The position numbers were made by a program, and so were the translations under genes. Source: Egibacter rhizosphaerae (GTDB lineage Bacteria; Actinomycetota; Nitriliruptoria; Euzebyales; Egibacteraceae). Taken from it: a DNA stretch of 64,000 nucleotides. The notes under the pieces are model-generated. The model worked only from the letters and a program-made list of their open reading frames with translations. It was not told where the DNA came from and did not search any database. Shown piece by piece: positions 15,031 through 56,520 of the stretch. Location of the stretch: the NCBI RefSeq assembly GCF_004322855.1, contig NZ_CP036402.1, positions 3,472,001 through 3,536,000 on the forward strand. Reading direction: 5' to 3'. Numbering within the stretch: position 1 is the first letter of the stretch; every line of letters starts with the position of its first letter.

Positions 15031-15083
15031 CCACCGTCCGGGCGGGGTGATGTGCTGGTGTGCACAGGATCCCGCCCGGGTGG
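15031..15083. repeat. Dispersed hairpin element, copy A (possible bidirectional terminator)
   Basis: An imperfect inverted repeat between two convergent genes. Its right half (15061-15083, beginning TGCACAGGATC and ending CCCGCCCGGGTGG) matches the right half of copy C at 53858-53880 at 22 of 23 positions. The arms pair through CCGGGCGGG and CCCGCCCGG with a TGTGC/TGCACA tip. It could stop transcription from both sides, or be a REP-like element. Confidence 0.6.
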
Positions 15084-15092
15084 CGTGATCGG

Positions 15093-17129
15093 CTACTCGA
15101 TGAACTCGACCAGTTGCTCGCGGACCTGCTCGCTGACCTCGCTCGGATCCGCGACGAGGAAGCCTCGGTCGACGTCTCCGAGCACCTCGGAGGACTCGTC
15201 CTCGAGGTCGTGGCTCGGCACGAGCAGCACGCCGGCGCCCTCGTGCGCGGCGAGCGCGCCCGCGACGACCGCCTCGGGGTAGGAGCGGCCGGGTGCGGCC
15301 ACGACGGAGCCGTCCCCGCCGTCGAACCGCGAGAGGGCCTCCAGCAGGACCGCTCGGCTCGTGCCGTAGCGGTCCTCGCCGGCCAACCGGGTGGTCGAGA
15401 CTCCTGCCCCGGCGAGCTCCTCCTCGACCGAGGCCTGCAGCGCCGCCTCGCCGCCGATGAGGATCGCGGTGGAGACGTCGAGCTCCTCCAGCGCGTCCAG
15501 GGTCGCGTCGGGGACCCGGTCCTCCCGGGCGAGCAGCGTCGGCACGGGCCGTGGCGCGGCGGCCAGAGCGGCGGCCGACAGGGCATCCGGCCAGGCCCGG
15601 TCGAACTCCTCGTGACGGCCGAGGCAGATGGCGACCTCCCCCGTGGGCGCCCCGATCCTGCGGGCGATCTCCACGGCGGTCTCGAAGCGGTCCGCGCCGT
15701 AGATGCGTTCGACCGTCGCGCCGTGCTCGCCGAAGTCGGCGTCGGCGCCCTCGTCGATCGCGGCAGATCCCCCCAGCACCAAGACCCGTTCGGCCCCGAG
15801 GCCGAGGATCTCGCCCTTGAGCCAGTTCGACGGACCGCCCTCTGGCACGAGCAGCAACGGCGCGTCCTCGGCGGCGGCCAGGGCGCCACCGCACAGCGCG
15901 TCGGCGAAGTCGTCGCCGCTCGCGATGACCAACGTGGGGGTGTGAGCCCACGCGTGGGCGGCCGCCGCGAGCCCCACGGCGGTCGGGGCCCGGCTGTCGA
16001 TCCGCTCGACCGTCGAGTCGAGCTCGTTGCTCGGGCGCGCGGCTTGGCCCAGCTGCGCTGCGGAGGCGCGCGACTCGGCGTCCTCGATGACCCGCTCGCG
16101 CAGGTCGTCCAGCCGGCTGTGGACCTGGCTGCCCGGGCACGACGTGGAGCCGAGGTCGGTGTGCCCGCGCACGGCGGGGCCGGGCGCTTGTGCACCCGAC
16201 ACGAAACGGTCGCCGCCGCGGGACAGGAGCGCGAGGTCGCCGCGCGGGTCGATGCGGTGAACGGCACACTGCCAGCCCGCGGCCTCGGCGAGCGCACGCC
16301 ACGAGTCCTCGGTCGCGCTGCGGCCGTTGAAGTCGCCGATCAGCGAGATACCGACGGTCTCGCTGTTGAAGCCGCGCACGTGGGCGCCCGCGGCGTGGCC
16401 ACCACGGCCCTCGTAGATGTTGCCGAACTTGTCGACGAGGTATTGGTAGCCGATGTCGCTCCATCCCAACGACTGGGTGTGGTAGCGATGGAAGCTGCGG
16501 ACGATGGCGTTGACCTCGCTGGGGCTGTAGTCACCGTTGGTCGCGGTGTGGTGCACGATCACCGACCGCGCGCGGGTCAGGCGGCTGGCGGGGCTCGTCG
16601 AACTCGGCGCCCCCCACTGACTGCGGCTGATGATGCTGGGCTCGTCGCCCGCCGCGCGTGGGCGGACGGGCACGTCCTCGCCCGTGTCGTCGACGAGATG
16701 GATCTCCAGGTCCTCGAGTTCGACGTCGCGGACCTCGATCCATTCCGAACGGGGGACGCTGAGCGGCTCGGTGACCCGCGCCGTCTCGGGGGTGTCCTCG
16801 CCTGCCTCGCGGTCCGGCGCCTCGCCGGCGTCGCCCGCCGGTCGCAGCGTCCGCCAGTCGGTCCAGGTCTCGCCGTCGCTGCTCGTGCGCACGCGGACGT
16901 GCTTCGCACCGCGGGGGAGGCGGAACCCGACGACGCGGAACGGCGAGTCGGTGTGCACCGTGCCCGGGCCGAGGTCGCGTCTGGCTCTCGCGGCGACGGC
17001 GCTCGGCGTCATCACCTCGTGACGCGTGCCGTTGTCGGCCAGGGCGATCCGCGGCCGCAGGCCGACCAGAGCCGCGCCTGCGGCCATGCCGGCCAGCACG
17101 TCCCGGCGTTGCACGCTCCCGCGGGGCAA
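15093..17129 (-). CDS. Exported N-acetylmuramoyl-L-alanine amidase (PGRP domain) with CWB2 repeats
   Basis: 678 residues from a TTG at 17129 with GGAGG five bases upstream; the frame is open further but without a ribosome site. The N-terminus RRDVLAGMAAGAALVG looks like a twin-arginine signal. Residues about 170-330 form an amidase_2/PGRP domain: ISRSQWGAP, VHHTAT (zinc His), DIGYQYLVDKFGNIYEGRGG and GHTDLGSTSCPG (zinc His and Cys). The C-terminal half is three CWB2 repeats, which anchor proteins to wall polymers (RIYGADRFETAVEIA and RLAGEDRYGTSRA are repeat cores). Predicted to cleave the stem peptide from muramic acid outside the membrane. A 290-base structured leader precedes it. Confidence 0.9.
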   Translation of the reverse strand: MPRGSVQRRDVLAGMAAGAALVGLRPRIALADNGTRHEVMTPSAVAARARRDLGPGTVHTDSPFRVVGFRLPRGAKHVRVRTSSDGETWTDWRTLRPAGDAGEAPDREAGEDTPETARVTEPLSVPRSEWIEVRDVELEDLEIHLVDDTGEDVPVRPRAAGDEPSIISRSQWGAPSSTSPASRLTRARSVIVHHTATNGDYSPSEVNAIVRSFHRYHTQSLGWSDIGYQYLVDKFGNIYEGRGGHAAGAHVRGFNSETVGISLIGDFNGRSATEDSWRALAEAAGWQCAVHRIDPRGDLALLSRGGDRFVSGAQAPGPAVRGHTDLGSTSCPGSQVHSRLDDLRERVIEDAESRASAAQLGQAARPSNELDSTVERIDSRAPTAVGLAAAAHAWAHTPTLVIASGDDFADALCGGALAAAEDAPLLLVPEGGPSNWLKGEILGLGAERVLVLGGSAAIDEGADADFGEHGATVERIYGADRFETAVEIARRIGAPTGEVAICLGRHEEFDRAWPDALSAAALAAAPRPVPTLLAREDRVPDATLDALEELDVSTAILIGGEAALQASVEEELAGAGVSTTRLAGEDRYGTSRAVLLEALSRFDGGDGSVVAAPGRSYPEAVVAGALAAHEGAGVLLVPSHDLEDESSEVLGDVDRGFLVADPSEVSEQVREQLVEFIE

Positions 17130-50350: not shown

Positions 50351-52960
50351 CTACGGTCGCTCGAAGTGCATCCAGTCGTCGAGGCTGCGCCAGCGGCCCC
50401 CCCACTCCCAGCCGCGGGCATCGAACGCCTCCACGACCGCGTCGCCCTCCACGATCATCCCCGGCCGCTCGTTGCCGCGGTCCAGATACGCCTCACCGGC
50501 GGGCGGGAGCACCTCGCCGTCACGCCGATACGGGTTCTGCACGGGATTGAGGTCGATCGCCGTGCCGAAGCTGTGCTCCGACCACGTGTTGCTGCCGGTG
50601 ATCGGACGGCAGTTGAAGGCCGACGAATTGTTCGCCTCCATCGAGGCGTCGTCGTCGCCGCCGTAGGCGGCGATCGGTTCCATCCGCTCGATCGGGAAGC
50701 GCGCGGCGGCGAGGTCGCTCATGATGTCGGCGACCTCCCCCGCGATGTCGTCAGCGACGACGAGCTCGCCCGTCCGCAACTGGTGCGCGAAGTCCCAGTG
50801 GGGGGTCTCGACGATCGCGAGATCGGGCGGATCGACCGGACAGCCCTGCTCCCAGCTCGTGCCGTTCATCGCGTCGCGCTCGTCGTCGTTCAGTGCACGG
50901 GTCGTGGCCTCGGGCTCCGCGCCGAGGCGGATGATCCGGTCGTCGCCCGCCCGCGGGTCGCCGCGCCCGTCGGTGTTGTTCGTCAGGACCCACAGGCTCC
51001 CGTCGGGCGCGGTCACGACCTCGCGCAGCCGGCCGCGCTCGCTCGTCAGCAGCTCCTCGCTGGCGGTGACCTCGTCGCCGTCGACCTCGAGGCGCCACAG
51101 CCGCTCGCCGCGCAGTGCCGCCACGAGCACGTCGCCCTCCCACTGCGGGATCGCCCCGTCGACCAGCACCTCCAGCCCCGACCACGACGCGACCGGGGGC
51201 TGGCGCACGAACACCGGGTCCTCGAGCTCGGGGTCGCCGGTGACGCCGGTCTCGTCCGGCCAGCCGTAGTTGCCGCCGGCGGTGATGACGTTCACCTCGT
51301 CGTCGACATCGGGACCGAACTCCGAGGCCCACAGGCGACCCTCGGCGTCCCAGTCGAGGCCCTGGCTGTTGCGGATCCCGGTGGCGTAGACCGGGCTGGG
51401 CTCGCCGCCATCCCACGTGGGGTTGTCAGACGGCACGCTCCCGTCCGGTTCGAGCCGCAGGATCGCCCCCGCGGGATCCCGGGGATCCTGGCTGCGCTGG
51501 CCGTCGCCGGCGTCCCCGGTGGCGACCCACAGGTAGCCGTCGGGACCGAACGCGATCCGCCCGCCGTTGTGGATGCTCCCGTGGGGGATGCCGTCGAAGA
51601 CGACCTCCTCGGCCTCCCCGGGGTCGGACAGGCGGGTGACGCGGTTCTCGTTCGCCCGCGAGTAGTAGGCGTAGAGATCCCCGGTCCCGGGCCGCTCGGC
51701 GAGGCCGAGCAGCCCCCCCTCCCCGGCGTTGTTCACGTCGAACCGGTGCACCTCCTGCGTCCCGCCCTCGGCGTCGAGCTCGAGGACCCGGCCGCTGTCG
51801 CGCTCGGTCACCAGCACGTCGCCGTTCTCGCGGAAGACCACGTCCCACGGGGCGTCGAGGCCGGTGGCGATGTCGGTCTCGGTGATCTCGACCGGGTCCT
51901 CGGGCGGCGACGGCCGCGGGTCCCCGGCGAACGCTGCGGCGAGCTCCTCGGCGACGAAGGCGCTCACCGCGGCCTCCCCACCGACGATGCGCGCGGCCTC
52001 GAGATCGACGTCGTCGCGCAGCGCCGCGTCGAGCGCATCCGTCAGCCGCTCGGCAGGGACGAGGACGAGCGGCGCGTCCAGCCGAGCCGCGAGCGGCCCG
52101 GCGGACAAGCCGTCGGCGAACGTCGCCCCGCTGGCGGCGAGGGCCTCGGTATCGGCGCCCTCGTCGAGCGCCCGCGTCACCGCCGCGATGCTCGTCCCGT
52201 AGCGGTCGTCGCCCGCCAGGCGGTCCGTCTCGTCCACCAGCGCCGCCACGTCCTCGGCCACCGCGGCGTCGAGCGCGGCCTCGCCTCCGAGCAGGGTCGC
52301 CCGGTCCGGCGCGAGCTCGTCGAGCGCGTCGGCGGTGCTCTGCGGGAGCGCGCCGGGGAGCGCGAGCAGGACCGGCCGCTGCCCGTCGAGAAGCGCGCCG
52401 GCGGCCAGCGCGTCCGCGAAGTCCTCGCCGGACACGACGAGGGCCTCCTCCACGTCGGTCCCCTCGGCGGCGGCTGCGGCGACCTCGGCGGCGGTCTCGT
52501 AGCGGTCTCGTCCGCTCAGCCGATCGACGTCGTCGACGAGGCCCTCGAGCTCGCCGGCGACCGCCTCGTCGACGGCGGCGGGACCGCCCACCAGAAGGAC
52601 CTCCTCGACCTCGAGATCGTCGAGCGCGTCGGCGGTGGCGCCGGGCAGCTCGTCCGATTCGGTGAGCAGGAGCGGGGCGTCGCGGCTCGCGGCGAGTGCC
52701 CCGGCGGTGAGCGCGTCGGGGAAGTCGCGGCCCGTGGCCACCACCGCCGTGGCCGCGGTCTCCCAGCCGTCGCCGGCGACCTCGGCGGCCGTCTCGAAGC
52801 GATCGGCGCCCGCCACCCGCGGGACGGTCGGGTCCGCTCCGTCGTGTTCCGCGGCCCCGGCCGAGCCGGTGGCCAGCACCAGCCCCACGAGCGCCAGCGC
52901 GCCGACCGCCGCGGCCGCGGCCGCGAGTATCCGGGTCGAGCCGAGCGGATGGGCGGACAT
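50351..52960 (-). CDS. CWB2 / PQQ-type sugar dehydrogenase / M15 peptidase triple fusion
   Basis: 869 residues, ATG 52960 with GAGGAGG five bases upstream. Residues 1-36 are a signal peptide. About 48-345 hold three CWB2 repeats (RVAGADRFETAAEVA, RLSGRDRYETAAEVA, RLAGDDRYGTSIAAV). About 352-680 form a glucose/sorbosone dehydrogenase beta-propeller: GLDAPWDVVFRENGDVLVTE, NNAGEGGLLGLAERPGTGDL, HNGGRIAFGPDGYLWVATGD, GNYGWPDETG. About 690-869 are an M15 (D,D-carboxypeptidase-like) domain with zinc motif SEHSFGTAIDLN and closing DWMHFERP. So a wall-bound protein may join sugar oxidation or sugar binding with peptide cleavage. It has no lysine. I know of no precedent for this order, but I could not search. 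Confidence 0.88.
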   Translation of the reverse strand: MSAHPLGSTRILAAAAAAVGALALVGLVLATGSAGAAEHDGADPTVPRVAGADRFETAAEVAGDGWETAATAVVATGRDFPDALTAGALAASRDAPLLLTESDELPGATADALDDLEVEEVLLVGGPAAVDEAVAGELEGLVDDVDRLSGRDRYETAAEVAAAAAEGTDVEEALVVSGEDFADALAAGALLDGQRPVLLALPGALPQSTADALDELAPDRATLLGGEAALDAAVAEDVAALVDETDRLAGDDRYGTSIAAVTRALDEGADTEALAASGATFADGLSAGPLAARLDAPLVLVPAERLTDALDAALRDDVDLEAARIVGGEAAVSAFVAEELAAAFAGDPRPSPPEDPVEITETDIATGLDAPWDVVFRENGDVLVTERDSGRVLELDAEGGTQEVHRFDVNNAGEGGLLGLAERPGTGDLYAYYSRANENRVTRLSDPGEAEEVVFDGIPHGSIHNGGRIAFGPDGYLWVATGDAGDGQRSQDPRDPAGAILRLEPDGSVPSDNPTWDGGEPSPVYATGIRNSQGLDWDAEGRLWASEFGPDVDDEVNVITAGGNYGWPDETGVTGDPELEDPVFVRQPPVASWSGLEVLVDGAIPQWEGDVLVAALRGERLWRLEVDGDEVTASEELLTSERGRLREVVTAPDGSLWVLTNNTDGRGDPRAGDDRIIRLGAEPEATTRALNDDERDAMNGTSWEQGCPVDPPDLAIVETPHWDFAHQLRTGELVVADDIAGEVADIMSDLAAARFPIERMEPIAAYGGDDDASMEANNSSAFNCRPITGSNTWSEHSFGTAIDLNPVQNPYRRDGEVLPPAGEAYLDRGNERPGMIVEGDAVVEAFDARGWEWGGRWRSLDDWMHFERP

Positions 52961-53043
52961 GTGGCCTCCTCAGGACTCCGTTTCGGGATGTGTCGTGGCT
53001 GAGACGCGCGACGGCCCACGAACGACGTGCGGAGTCGTATTCG

Positions 53044-53742
53044 TCAGGACCCGGCACCCTCGGGATCGAGGATACGGTCGAGGTCGATCTCGGCGACGGT
53101 GTCGAACCGGTGGTGCGCGTGGCCGAGCCGTTCGGCCGGGCCGACGCCGACCGTCACCATGCCGGCCGCGAGGGCGGCGTCCACCCCGCTGGCCGCGTCC
53201 TCCACCACGACGCAACGTTCGGCCGCGACCCCGAGCTGGTCCGCCGCGTGGAGGAACAGGTCCGGCGCGGGCTTGGCGCGTTCGACGGCGTTGCCGTCGC
53301 TGACCGCGGCGAACTGGTCGGTGATCCCGAGCCGGTCGAGGACCATCGGTGCGTTGCGCGACGACGAACCGATCGCGACCGCGAGGCCCTCGTCCTTGCA
53401 CGCGAGCACCAGCTCGAGGGCGCCGGGCAGCAGGTCGGCGGGGGAGAGCTCGTCCAGCGCGTCCACGTAGTAGCGGTTCTTGCGGTCGGCCCACTCGCGC
53501 TTCTGCTCGACGTCCGCGGTGACGCCGTTCTCCGCGAGGATCCGCTCCAGCGAGTCCATCCGCGAGACCCCGCGCAGCTCGTCGGCCAGGGCGGAGTCGA
53601 AGTGCCAGCCCTGCTCGTCGGCGAGCCGCGCCCAGCCGCGCTCGTGGAACTCGGCGGTGTCGGTGAGGACCCCGTCGAGGTCGAAGATCACCGCGTCGAG
53701 GCGGGTGGCCTCGTCCGCGCGCGCTCCTGTTCTCGGCCGCAC
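53044..53742 (-). CDS. pgmB: Beta-phosphoglucomutase (HAD family)
   Basis: 232 residues from a GTG at 53742 with AGGAG five bases upstream; the in-frame ATG at 53862 lies in hairpin elements. FDLDGVLTDTAEFHERGWA is the HAD nucleophile motif with the extra catalytic Asp (DxD) and the beta-PGM-type TDTAEFH; LRGVSRMDSLERIL matches the family's substrate loop RGVSR; AIGSSSRNAP (Ser and Arg) and KPAPDLFLHAA (Lys) complete it. It turns beta-glucose 1-phosphate into glucose 6-phosphate. It is the natural partner of the GH65 phosphorylase at 20994. Confidence 0.9.
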   Translation of the reverse strand: MRPRTGARADEATRLDAVIFDLDGVLTDTAEFHERGWARLADEQGWHFDSALADELRGVSRMDSLERILAENGVTADVEQKREWADRKNRYYVDALDELSPADLLPGALELVLACKDEGLAVAIGSSSRNAPMVLDRLGITDQFAAVSDGNAVERAKPAPDLFLHAADQLGVAAERCVVVEDAASGVDAALAAGMVTVGVGPAERLGHAHHRFDTVAEIDLDRILDPEGAGS

Positions 53743-53770
53743 GTGCGCTCCTGTCGCTGCCGACCCGGGA

Positions 53771-53880
53771 TCCGGGCGGGGGTGTGTGCGTCCCTGCACA
53801 TGGTCCTGCCCGGGCGCGGTGAGCCTCAACCCGCCCGGGCGGAGCGACGTGCACAGATGCACACGATCCCGCCCGGGTGG
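53771..53880. repeat. Dispersed hairpin element, copies B and C
   Basis: Copy B (53771-53814): CCGGGCGGGGG with TGTGTGC, five-base loop, TGCACA and CCTGCCCGG. Copy C (53831-53880): CCGCCCGGGCGG with ACGTGCA, loop, TGCACAC and CCCGCCCGGGTGG. Both sit between two - strand genes, and C shares 22 of 23 right-arm positions with copy A at 15061-15083. Confidence 0.65.
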
Positions 53881-55736: not shown

Positions 55737-56402
55737 TCAGCGGAATCGCTCGCGCAGCGCCAGGACGTTGTCGATGTAGGCGCGGGTGTCGTCGAACTTG
55801 CCGTACCGCTCGACCGACGCGAGGCCCTGGTAGTAGCCGGCCAGGGTGAGCTCCACGTCCCCGCCGGTCAGGTCGTGGACGTGGTCGAGGAACAGCACGC
55901 CGGCGCGGACGTTGTCGGCGGAGTCAGCCAGATCGAGGTCCTCTCCCGCGAGCCGCGTGGACACGAACGTCCCCGTTCCCGGCATGACCTGCATGATCCC
56001 GACGGCACCGGCGCTGCTCACCCGCTGCTGCTGCCACCCGGACTCCTGCCAGGCCACCGCCTTGACGAAGGCCGGGCTCCAGCCGTGCTCGTGCGCGGTG
56101 CGCTCGATCAGGTCGCCGATCGCGGGCGGGGCGGACATCGGGACGCCGTCGCCGCCCGGTGCGGACGCTCCCGAGCCGCCGGGACGGGCCTCCGGGATGC
56201 GCAGGGTCGTGCCGGCCAGGACGAGGTCGTGGTCGGCGAGGTCGTTGGCCTCGGCCAGTTCTGCGGGCGAGACGCCGTGCTCGGCGGCGATGCCCGAGAG
56301 CGTGTCGCCCGGTTCCACCGTGTACTCGGCGGTGGCCGCGAACGCGAAGGCGAGCGCGATGACCGGAAGCGTGGACGGCGGGCGAGGTCGCATGCGCGGC
56401 AT
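55737..56402 (-). CDS. Secreted LysM/lytic transglycosylase (SLT)
   Basis: 221 residues from ATG 56402 with GGAAGG seven bases upstream. Signal peptide at 1-27; LysM at about 28-73 (YTVEPGDTLSGIAAEHGVSP, LAGTTLRIP); a Gly/Ser/Pro linker; then the goose-lysozyme-type transglycosylase with catalytic Glu in AWQESGWQQQ, SSAGAVGIMQVMPGTG and AGYYQGLASVERYG. It cleaves the glycan strand outside the cell. A long inverted repeat in its leader overlaps a competing hairpin. Confidence 0.92.
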   Translation of the reverse strand: MPRMRPRPPSTLPVIALAFAFAATAEYTVEPGDTLSGIAAEHGVSPAELAEANDLADHDLVLAGTTLRIPEARPGGSGASAPGGDGVPMSAPPAIGDLIERTAHEHGWSPAFVKAVAWQESGWQQQRVSSAGAVGIMQVMPGTGTFVSTRLAGEDLDLADSADNVRAGVLFLDHVHDLTGGDVELTLAGYYQGLASVERYGKFDDTRAYIDNVLALRERFR

Positions 56403-56520
56403 GGATGCGCCTTCCGAATGGGGAAGTATGGGCGTTTCCGGCTCTTGGCCGGAATTCGCGAGCACGGCCTACCCATGTCTCCTGGTGCGGGAAACGCCCA
56501 CCATGCCCGGGCTCCCCGTC
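56403..56520 (-). promoter_or_regulatory. Switch-like structured leader of the transglycosylase gene
   Basis: GGGCGTTTCC (56430-56439) and GGAAACGCCC (56490-56499) are a perfect 10-bp inverted repeat, 50 bases apart. Inside it GCAC/GTGC can pair. TTCCGGC/GCCGGAA (56436-56454) forms a hairpin that shares bases with one long-range arm, so the two structures exclude each other. Ligand or trigger not identifiable. Confidence 0.4.

Follow-up and report, generated by a model that had tools for sequence, protein, structure and literature searches.

Proteins anchored to the wall by three CWB2 repeats have been described in C. difficile, where CWB2 trios bind the anionic wall polymer PSII (PMC5842191) and 29 Cwps are reported (PMC6016235). 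As in Egibacter, the organism considered here, the C. difficile genome encodes dozens of such proteins, some of them enzyme-bearing (Cwp6, Cwp19 and others), whereas those named in the two papers have different catalytic domains and none described in them combines a glucose/sorbosone dehydrogenase (GSDH) with an M15 peptidase (PMC5842191, PMC6016235). CWB2 is not among the M15 binding domains named in a review of wall hydrolases (PMC6403190). Described M15 enzymes include the L-Ala-D-Glu endopeptidases Ply500 (2vo9), LysB4 (6akv) and ChiX (5opz), most of which are endolysins from phages and carry different binding domains. The SxHxxGxAxD motif of Ply500 is also found in PlyP56, a predicted L-Ala-D-Glu peptidase (PMC5977269). 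The aldose sugar dehydrogenases of the GSDH type, such as S. coelicolor Adh (3das), a P. aerophilum enzyme (3a9g) and E. coli Asd (2g8s), are stand-alone enzymes that have neither a wall anchor nor a peptidase.

A single gene joining these three elements was found in the window, the 64,000-nucleotide stretch of Egibacter rhizosphaerae DNA that was analysed. The open reading frame (50351-52960, minus strand) begins with ATG, encodes 869 residues and has no internal stop, and direct reading of the sequence places a Shine-Dalgarno motif, AGGAGG, 4 nt 5' of the ATG (52965..52970 in plus-strand coordinates). By inspection of the translation rather than by a predictor, residues 1 to about 37 (52850..52960, minus strand) form a putative Sec-type signal peptide with a basic N-region, an Ala/Leu/Val core and the cleavage motif AGAA|E, and no lipobox was seen. 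The Pfam matches, all of which exceed their curated cut-offs, follow in the order of three CWB2 repeats, GSDH and Peptidase_M15_4, and codon-position GC remains coding-like through both domain junctions. The intact frame, the Pfam order and the signal peptide thus bear out an earlier note on this DNA, which had described one secreted chain of 869 residues; the three repeats together with the signal peptide also support, at the level of sequence, its view that the protein is wall-anchored. No promoter-like site was found for the gene, and two terminator-like matches, lying inside the gene on the opposite strand, were rejected. The adjoining genes, namely a HAD hydrolase (53044-53862) and then an acetamidase/formamidase upstream on the same strand and a convergent Rrf2 regulator downstream, give no pointer to function. 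Another wall enzyme, a lytic transglycosylase-like protein with LysM and SLT domains, is encoded about 2.8 kb from the fusion (55737-56465, minus strand).

The dehydrogenase part (residues 363-681; 50918..51874, minus strand) is a full-length six-bladed GSDH propeller, as delimited by Pfam, phmmer and conservation. Its Pfam match (PF07995; residues 368-666, E 1.6e-73) covers positions 1-329 of the 332 in the profile. In phmmer searches it aligns over its whole length with 3das, 3a9g and 2ism and also aligns with sGDH (1c9u), and the aldose sugar dehydrogenases named above (3das, 3a9g, 2g8s) share with it full-length homology as well as the catalytic and cofactor-site residues. In the sGDH alignment, H464 pairs with H144, which we take to be the catalytic base, and D483, Q488, R530, N531, R644 and R646 pair with D163, Q168, R228, N229, R406 and R408, residues of the cofactor site. 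Each of these is at least 95% conserved among 15 GSDH family members, with the exception of Q488. The dehydrogenase propeller recognised earlier is thus a full-length GSDH which keeps the catalytic His464 and the cofactor-site residues, and PQQ-dependent sugar oxidation by this domain is possible, judging from the residues retained. A 507-aa single-sequence structure model was poor (pLDDT 44). Searches for PQQ synthesis genes recognised no copy of pqqB in the Egibacter genome, and for pqqC none of the genomes of its class, Egibacter included, gave a match that passed the cut-off; these searches had no positive control, as nothing exceeded the cut-off for either gene in the two control sets. 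Because neither gene was recognised in the genome, oxidation by the GSDH domain would need PQQ from outside, or the domain may be without its cofactor.

The M15 zinc peptidase domain (residues 693-869; 50354..50884, minus strand) was delimited by Pfam, alignments, an AlphaFold2 model and a fold search, with the Peptidase_M15_4 match (PF13539) spanning residues 788-867 (E 4.5e-23). The SxHxxGxAxD motif, the third histidine and the acid/base residue are all present: the zinc ligands H796, D803 and H865 and the acid/base D862 match the positions in Ply500 and are nearly invariant among 23 M15 family members. Cys707 and Cys784 are also conserved, a pair which fits a secreted domain, as expected. 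The AlphaFold2 model, built from an eight-row alignment, reached a pLDDT of 91.9, and its top four PDB fold matches were all M15 proteins (Ply500, ChiX, LysB4 and VanX), three of them L-Ala-D-Glu peptidases, at weak E-values (0.014-0.11) and low TM-scores (0.42 or below). Ply500, LysB4 and ChiX have the SxHxxGxAxD and D-x-x-H motifs in common with the domain and were its top sequence and fold matches, although overall similarity is low. Since these closest solved relatives are L-Ala-D-Glu endopeptidases, L-Ala-D-Glu endopeptidase activity appears a more likely specificity than D,D-carboxypeptidase activity, and the same argument has been made for PlyP56, which carries the same Pfam label (PMC5977269). 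The earlier description of a D,D-carboxypeptidase-type domain with all zinc residues kept therefore holds for the intact M15 zinc site, as seen in the alignment, whereas its D,D-carboxypeptidase part reflects the Pfam label only. Six viral contigs (L129-L134), too, encode proteins related to this M15 subfamily, at 31-47% identity.

The anchor consists of three CWB2 repeats (residues about 47-349; 51914..52822, minus strand), matched by PF04122 in three stretches (E 3.8e-46). It belongs to a large surface-display set, comparable with the 29 Cwps of C. difficile, as the Egibacter genome (G000; loci L135-L169) encodes about 50 proteins with CWB2 trios, many of which carry enzymes, including six subtilases, two trypsins, 5'-nucleotidases, NlpC/P60, M23 and amidase domains, and others. 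A further CWB2 array lies in the window itself (15054-16031, minus strand; G000:C1:3487054-3488031), where the match crosses an in-frame TAG.

Among the 65 genomes of the class, GSDH and M15 were found in one gene in the window's genome only, and elsewhere they occupy separate genes. None of the 54 GSDH neighbourhoods inspected outside this genome has an M15 domain in the same ORF. In a sample of 396 genomes from the phylum, no match among those listed (the best three candidates per genome) spans both halves. Plasmid and phage records contain each domain alone, with no record covering 80% of the GSDH-M15 pair; viral contigs contain M15 relatives only, and one scan of a genome-contig collection returned just one M15 relative. 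One locus (L043), whose match span suggested a second fusion, was found on inspection to be SLH-M15. The domain-architecture check for CWB2, GSDH and M15 thus places the combination in the window's genome only, as far as the class genomes, the listed phylum-sample matches and the phage and plasmid records are concerned. No description of it was found in the open-access literature searched, and within that literature the impression that such a protein had not been described is borne out. The architecture is apparently unique, while every domain comes from a known family.

How the fusion arose may be read from its two hinges and from the anchors used by its relatives. In the class, GSDH is mostly anchored as a lipoprotein and also occurs as CWB2x3-GSDH (L049 in G003, L054 in G004), while M15 occurs as a lipoprotein, as SLH-M15 and as CWB2x3-M15. 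Proteins of this last form are present in the same family (L062 in G004) and the same order (L061, L063, L064, L068); they share with the window's protein a signal peptide, the CWB2 trio, the hinge motif and the M15 subfamily (49-55% identity), but have no GSDH between anchor and peptidase. L049 and L054, on the other hand, carry a GSDH (54-60% identity) behind their CWB2 trio and end where the window's GSDH ends, but lack M15, and their arrays and GSDH domains group apart from those of the window. The first hinge (residues 350-362, the GDPRPSPPEDPVEITETD region; 51875..51913, minus strand) begins with an array end as in CWB2-M15 proteins and continues with a PVEI leader typical of lipoprotein GSDHs. 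The second (residues 682-692; 50885..50917, minus strand) is followed by TTRALNDDERDAMNGTSW, a lead-in shared with CWB2-M15 proteins. The order in the window is therefore the AAAFAGDPRP array end, the PVEI-led GSDH module and TTRALNDDERDAMNGTSWEQGCPV as in VRALTMEERAAMTGVSWRPGCPV, and the two outer parts, AAAFAGDPRP...TTRALNDDERDAMNGTSWEQGCPV, match ARLAGQPDPGAAAEVRALTMEERAAMTGVSWRPGCPV of L068. Tandem M15 genes were also observed at L061 and L063 (genomes G029 and G024), with a CWB2 array on one of each pair, and tandem GSDH genes at L047 (G039), one of them having an N-terminal segment which resembles SLH repeats.

Topology tests were consistent with this comparison. Grouping the window's CWB2 array with those of L049 and L054 was rejected (AU p 0.020), as was grouping its GSDH with theirs (AU p 0.008). 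Placement of the array with CWB2-M15 arrays (AU p 0.37) and of the M15 domain with that of L062 (p 0.298) was not rejected, which denotes compatibility with CWB2-M15 ancestry and not proof; a tree constrained to group the array with L062 alone scores slightly better. The trees behind these tests are only modestly supported. Addition of M15 to the C-terminus of a CWB2-GSDH protein, a route considered given that L049 and L054 end at the fusion point, was rejected in view of the AU results and the hinge sequences. Based on the array test, the GSDH test and a hinge that looks like a CWB2-M15 hinge split open, we infer that a lipoprotein-type GSDH was inserted into a CWB2-M15 protein, of a kind that other members of its family and order possess. 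No synteny with relatives that might indicate the donor loci was retained.

A linkage of GSDH and M15 was also observed in one other, distant genus (g69, family f29), in three genomes of which (G420, G433 and G451; loci L081, L083 and L084) a GSDH lipoprotein gene adjoins an M15 lipoprotein gene. One pair is arranged tail-to-tail and two are head-to-head, and the flanking genes differ. Such adjacency was rejected as a general rule: of the 54 GSDH neighbourhoods inspected in other genomes, only 3, all from g69, have M15 close by. In a wider sample of the genus (297 genomes), M15 lies elsewhere in most GSDH carriers, so the adjacency is suggestive only, as a weak independent sign of GSDH-M15 linkage which may go back to one event. 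Across the class, M15 was found in 11 of 12 genomes with GSDH vs 21 of 53 without (Fisher p 0.0012, with neither relatedness nor completeness corrected for).

With moderate confidence, we favour the view that the protein is a secreted wall-remodelling enzyme made by insertion of GSDH, a PQQ-type aldose dehydrogenase, into the hinge of a CWB2x3-M15 protein. By analogy with C. difficile, the CWB2 trio would tether it to an anionic wall polymer. The M15 domain, through its His/Asp/His zinc site, may cleave the stem peptides of peptidoglycan, more probably at L-Ala-D-Glu if its nearest structures are a guide. The GSDH domain could oxidise aldoses in its vicinity, or fragments of wall glycan, at their reducing ends with PQQ taken from the environment, the electrons presumably passing to an outside acceptor.

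Several other explanations were weighed against this view. The earlier note had named an assembly join as what might undo the fusion, and the existence of GSDH and M15 partner domains as separate genes elsewhere would be in line with a join of two or three genes. Nevertheless, the genome is a single 4.64 Mb contig, the junction DNA is unique in it with neither junction repeated, and the fusion's M15 has no second copy there, while the one further GSDH is distant. To yield this gene, a misjoin would have to keep the frame at two breaks, each exactly at a domain edge, and the CWB2-M15 hinge sequence is present on both sides of GSDH, all of which makes such an artefact highly improbable. A genuine fusion might still be recent and neutral, with two unrelated surface enzymes placed on one anchor and functionally uncoupled. 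Its occurrence in one genome, the exchange of anchors (lipoprotein, SLH or CWB2) by both GSDH and M15 across the class, and the free shuffling shown by the approximately 50 CWB2 proteins of the genome agree with this, but both active sites have been retained despite about 40-60% divergence from relatives, and the neighbouring genes in the three g69 genomes and the co-occurrence across the class also speak against it, so that we regard a neutral fusion as unlikely.

GSDH might also no longer be enzymatic and act as a glycan-binding module or as a rigid spacer that places M15 on its substrate. Its position between anchor and peptidase is that of a spacer, and the failure to recognise pqqB or pqqC in the genome points the same way; however, the catalytic histidine and the cofactor-site residues are all retained, and PQQ enzymes are widespread even though PQQ synthesis is not universal among prokaryotes (PMC4133262). 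Loss of enzymatic activity is thus conceivable but appears somewhat improbable. The wall-remodelling enzyme favoured here might be truly bifunctional, with oxidation of glycan reducing ends or of nearby aldoses coupled to stem-peptide cutting, such that the redox or sugar state of the wall would set where or when M15 acts and the neighbouring GSDH and M15 lipoproteins of other actinobacteria would be its two-gene form. This coupling is a speculative idea that we consider quite unlikely.

GSDH-type dehydrogenases are widespread on actinobacterial surfaces, mostly as lipoproteins in this class. The wall-anchored fusion and the gene pairs of g69 suggest one role for GSDH in wall metabolism, and the fusion offers a single purifiable protein in which such a role may be examined.
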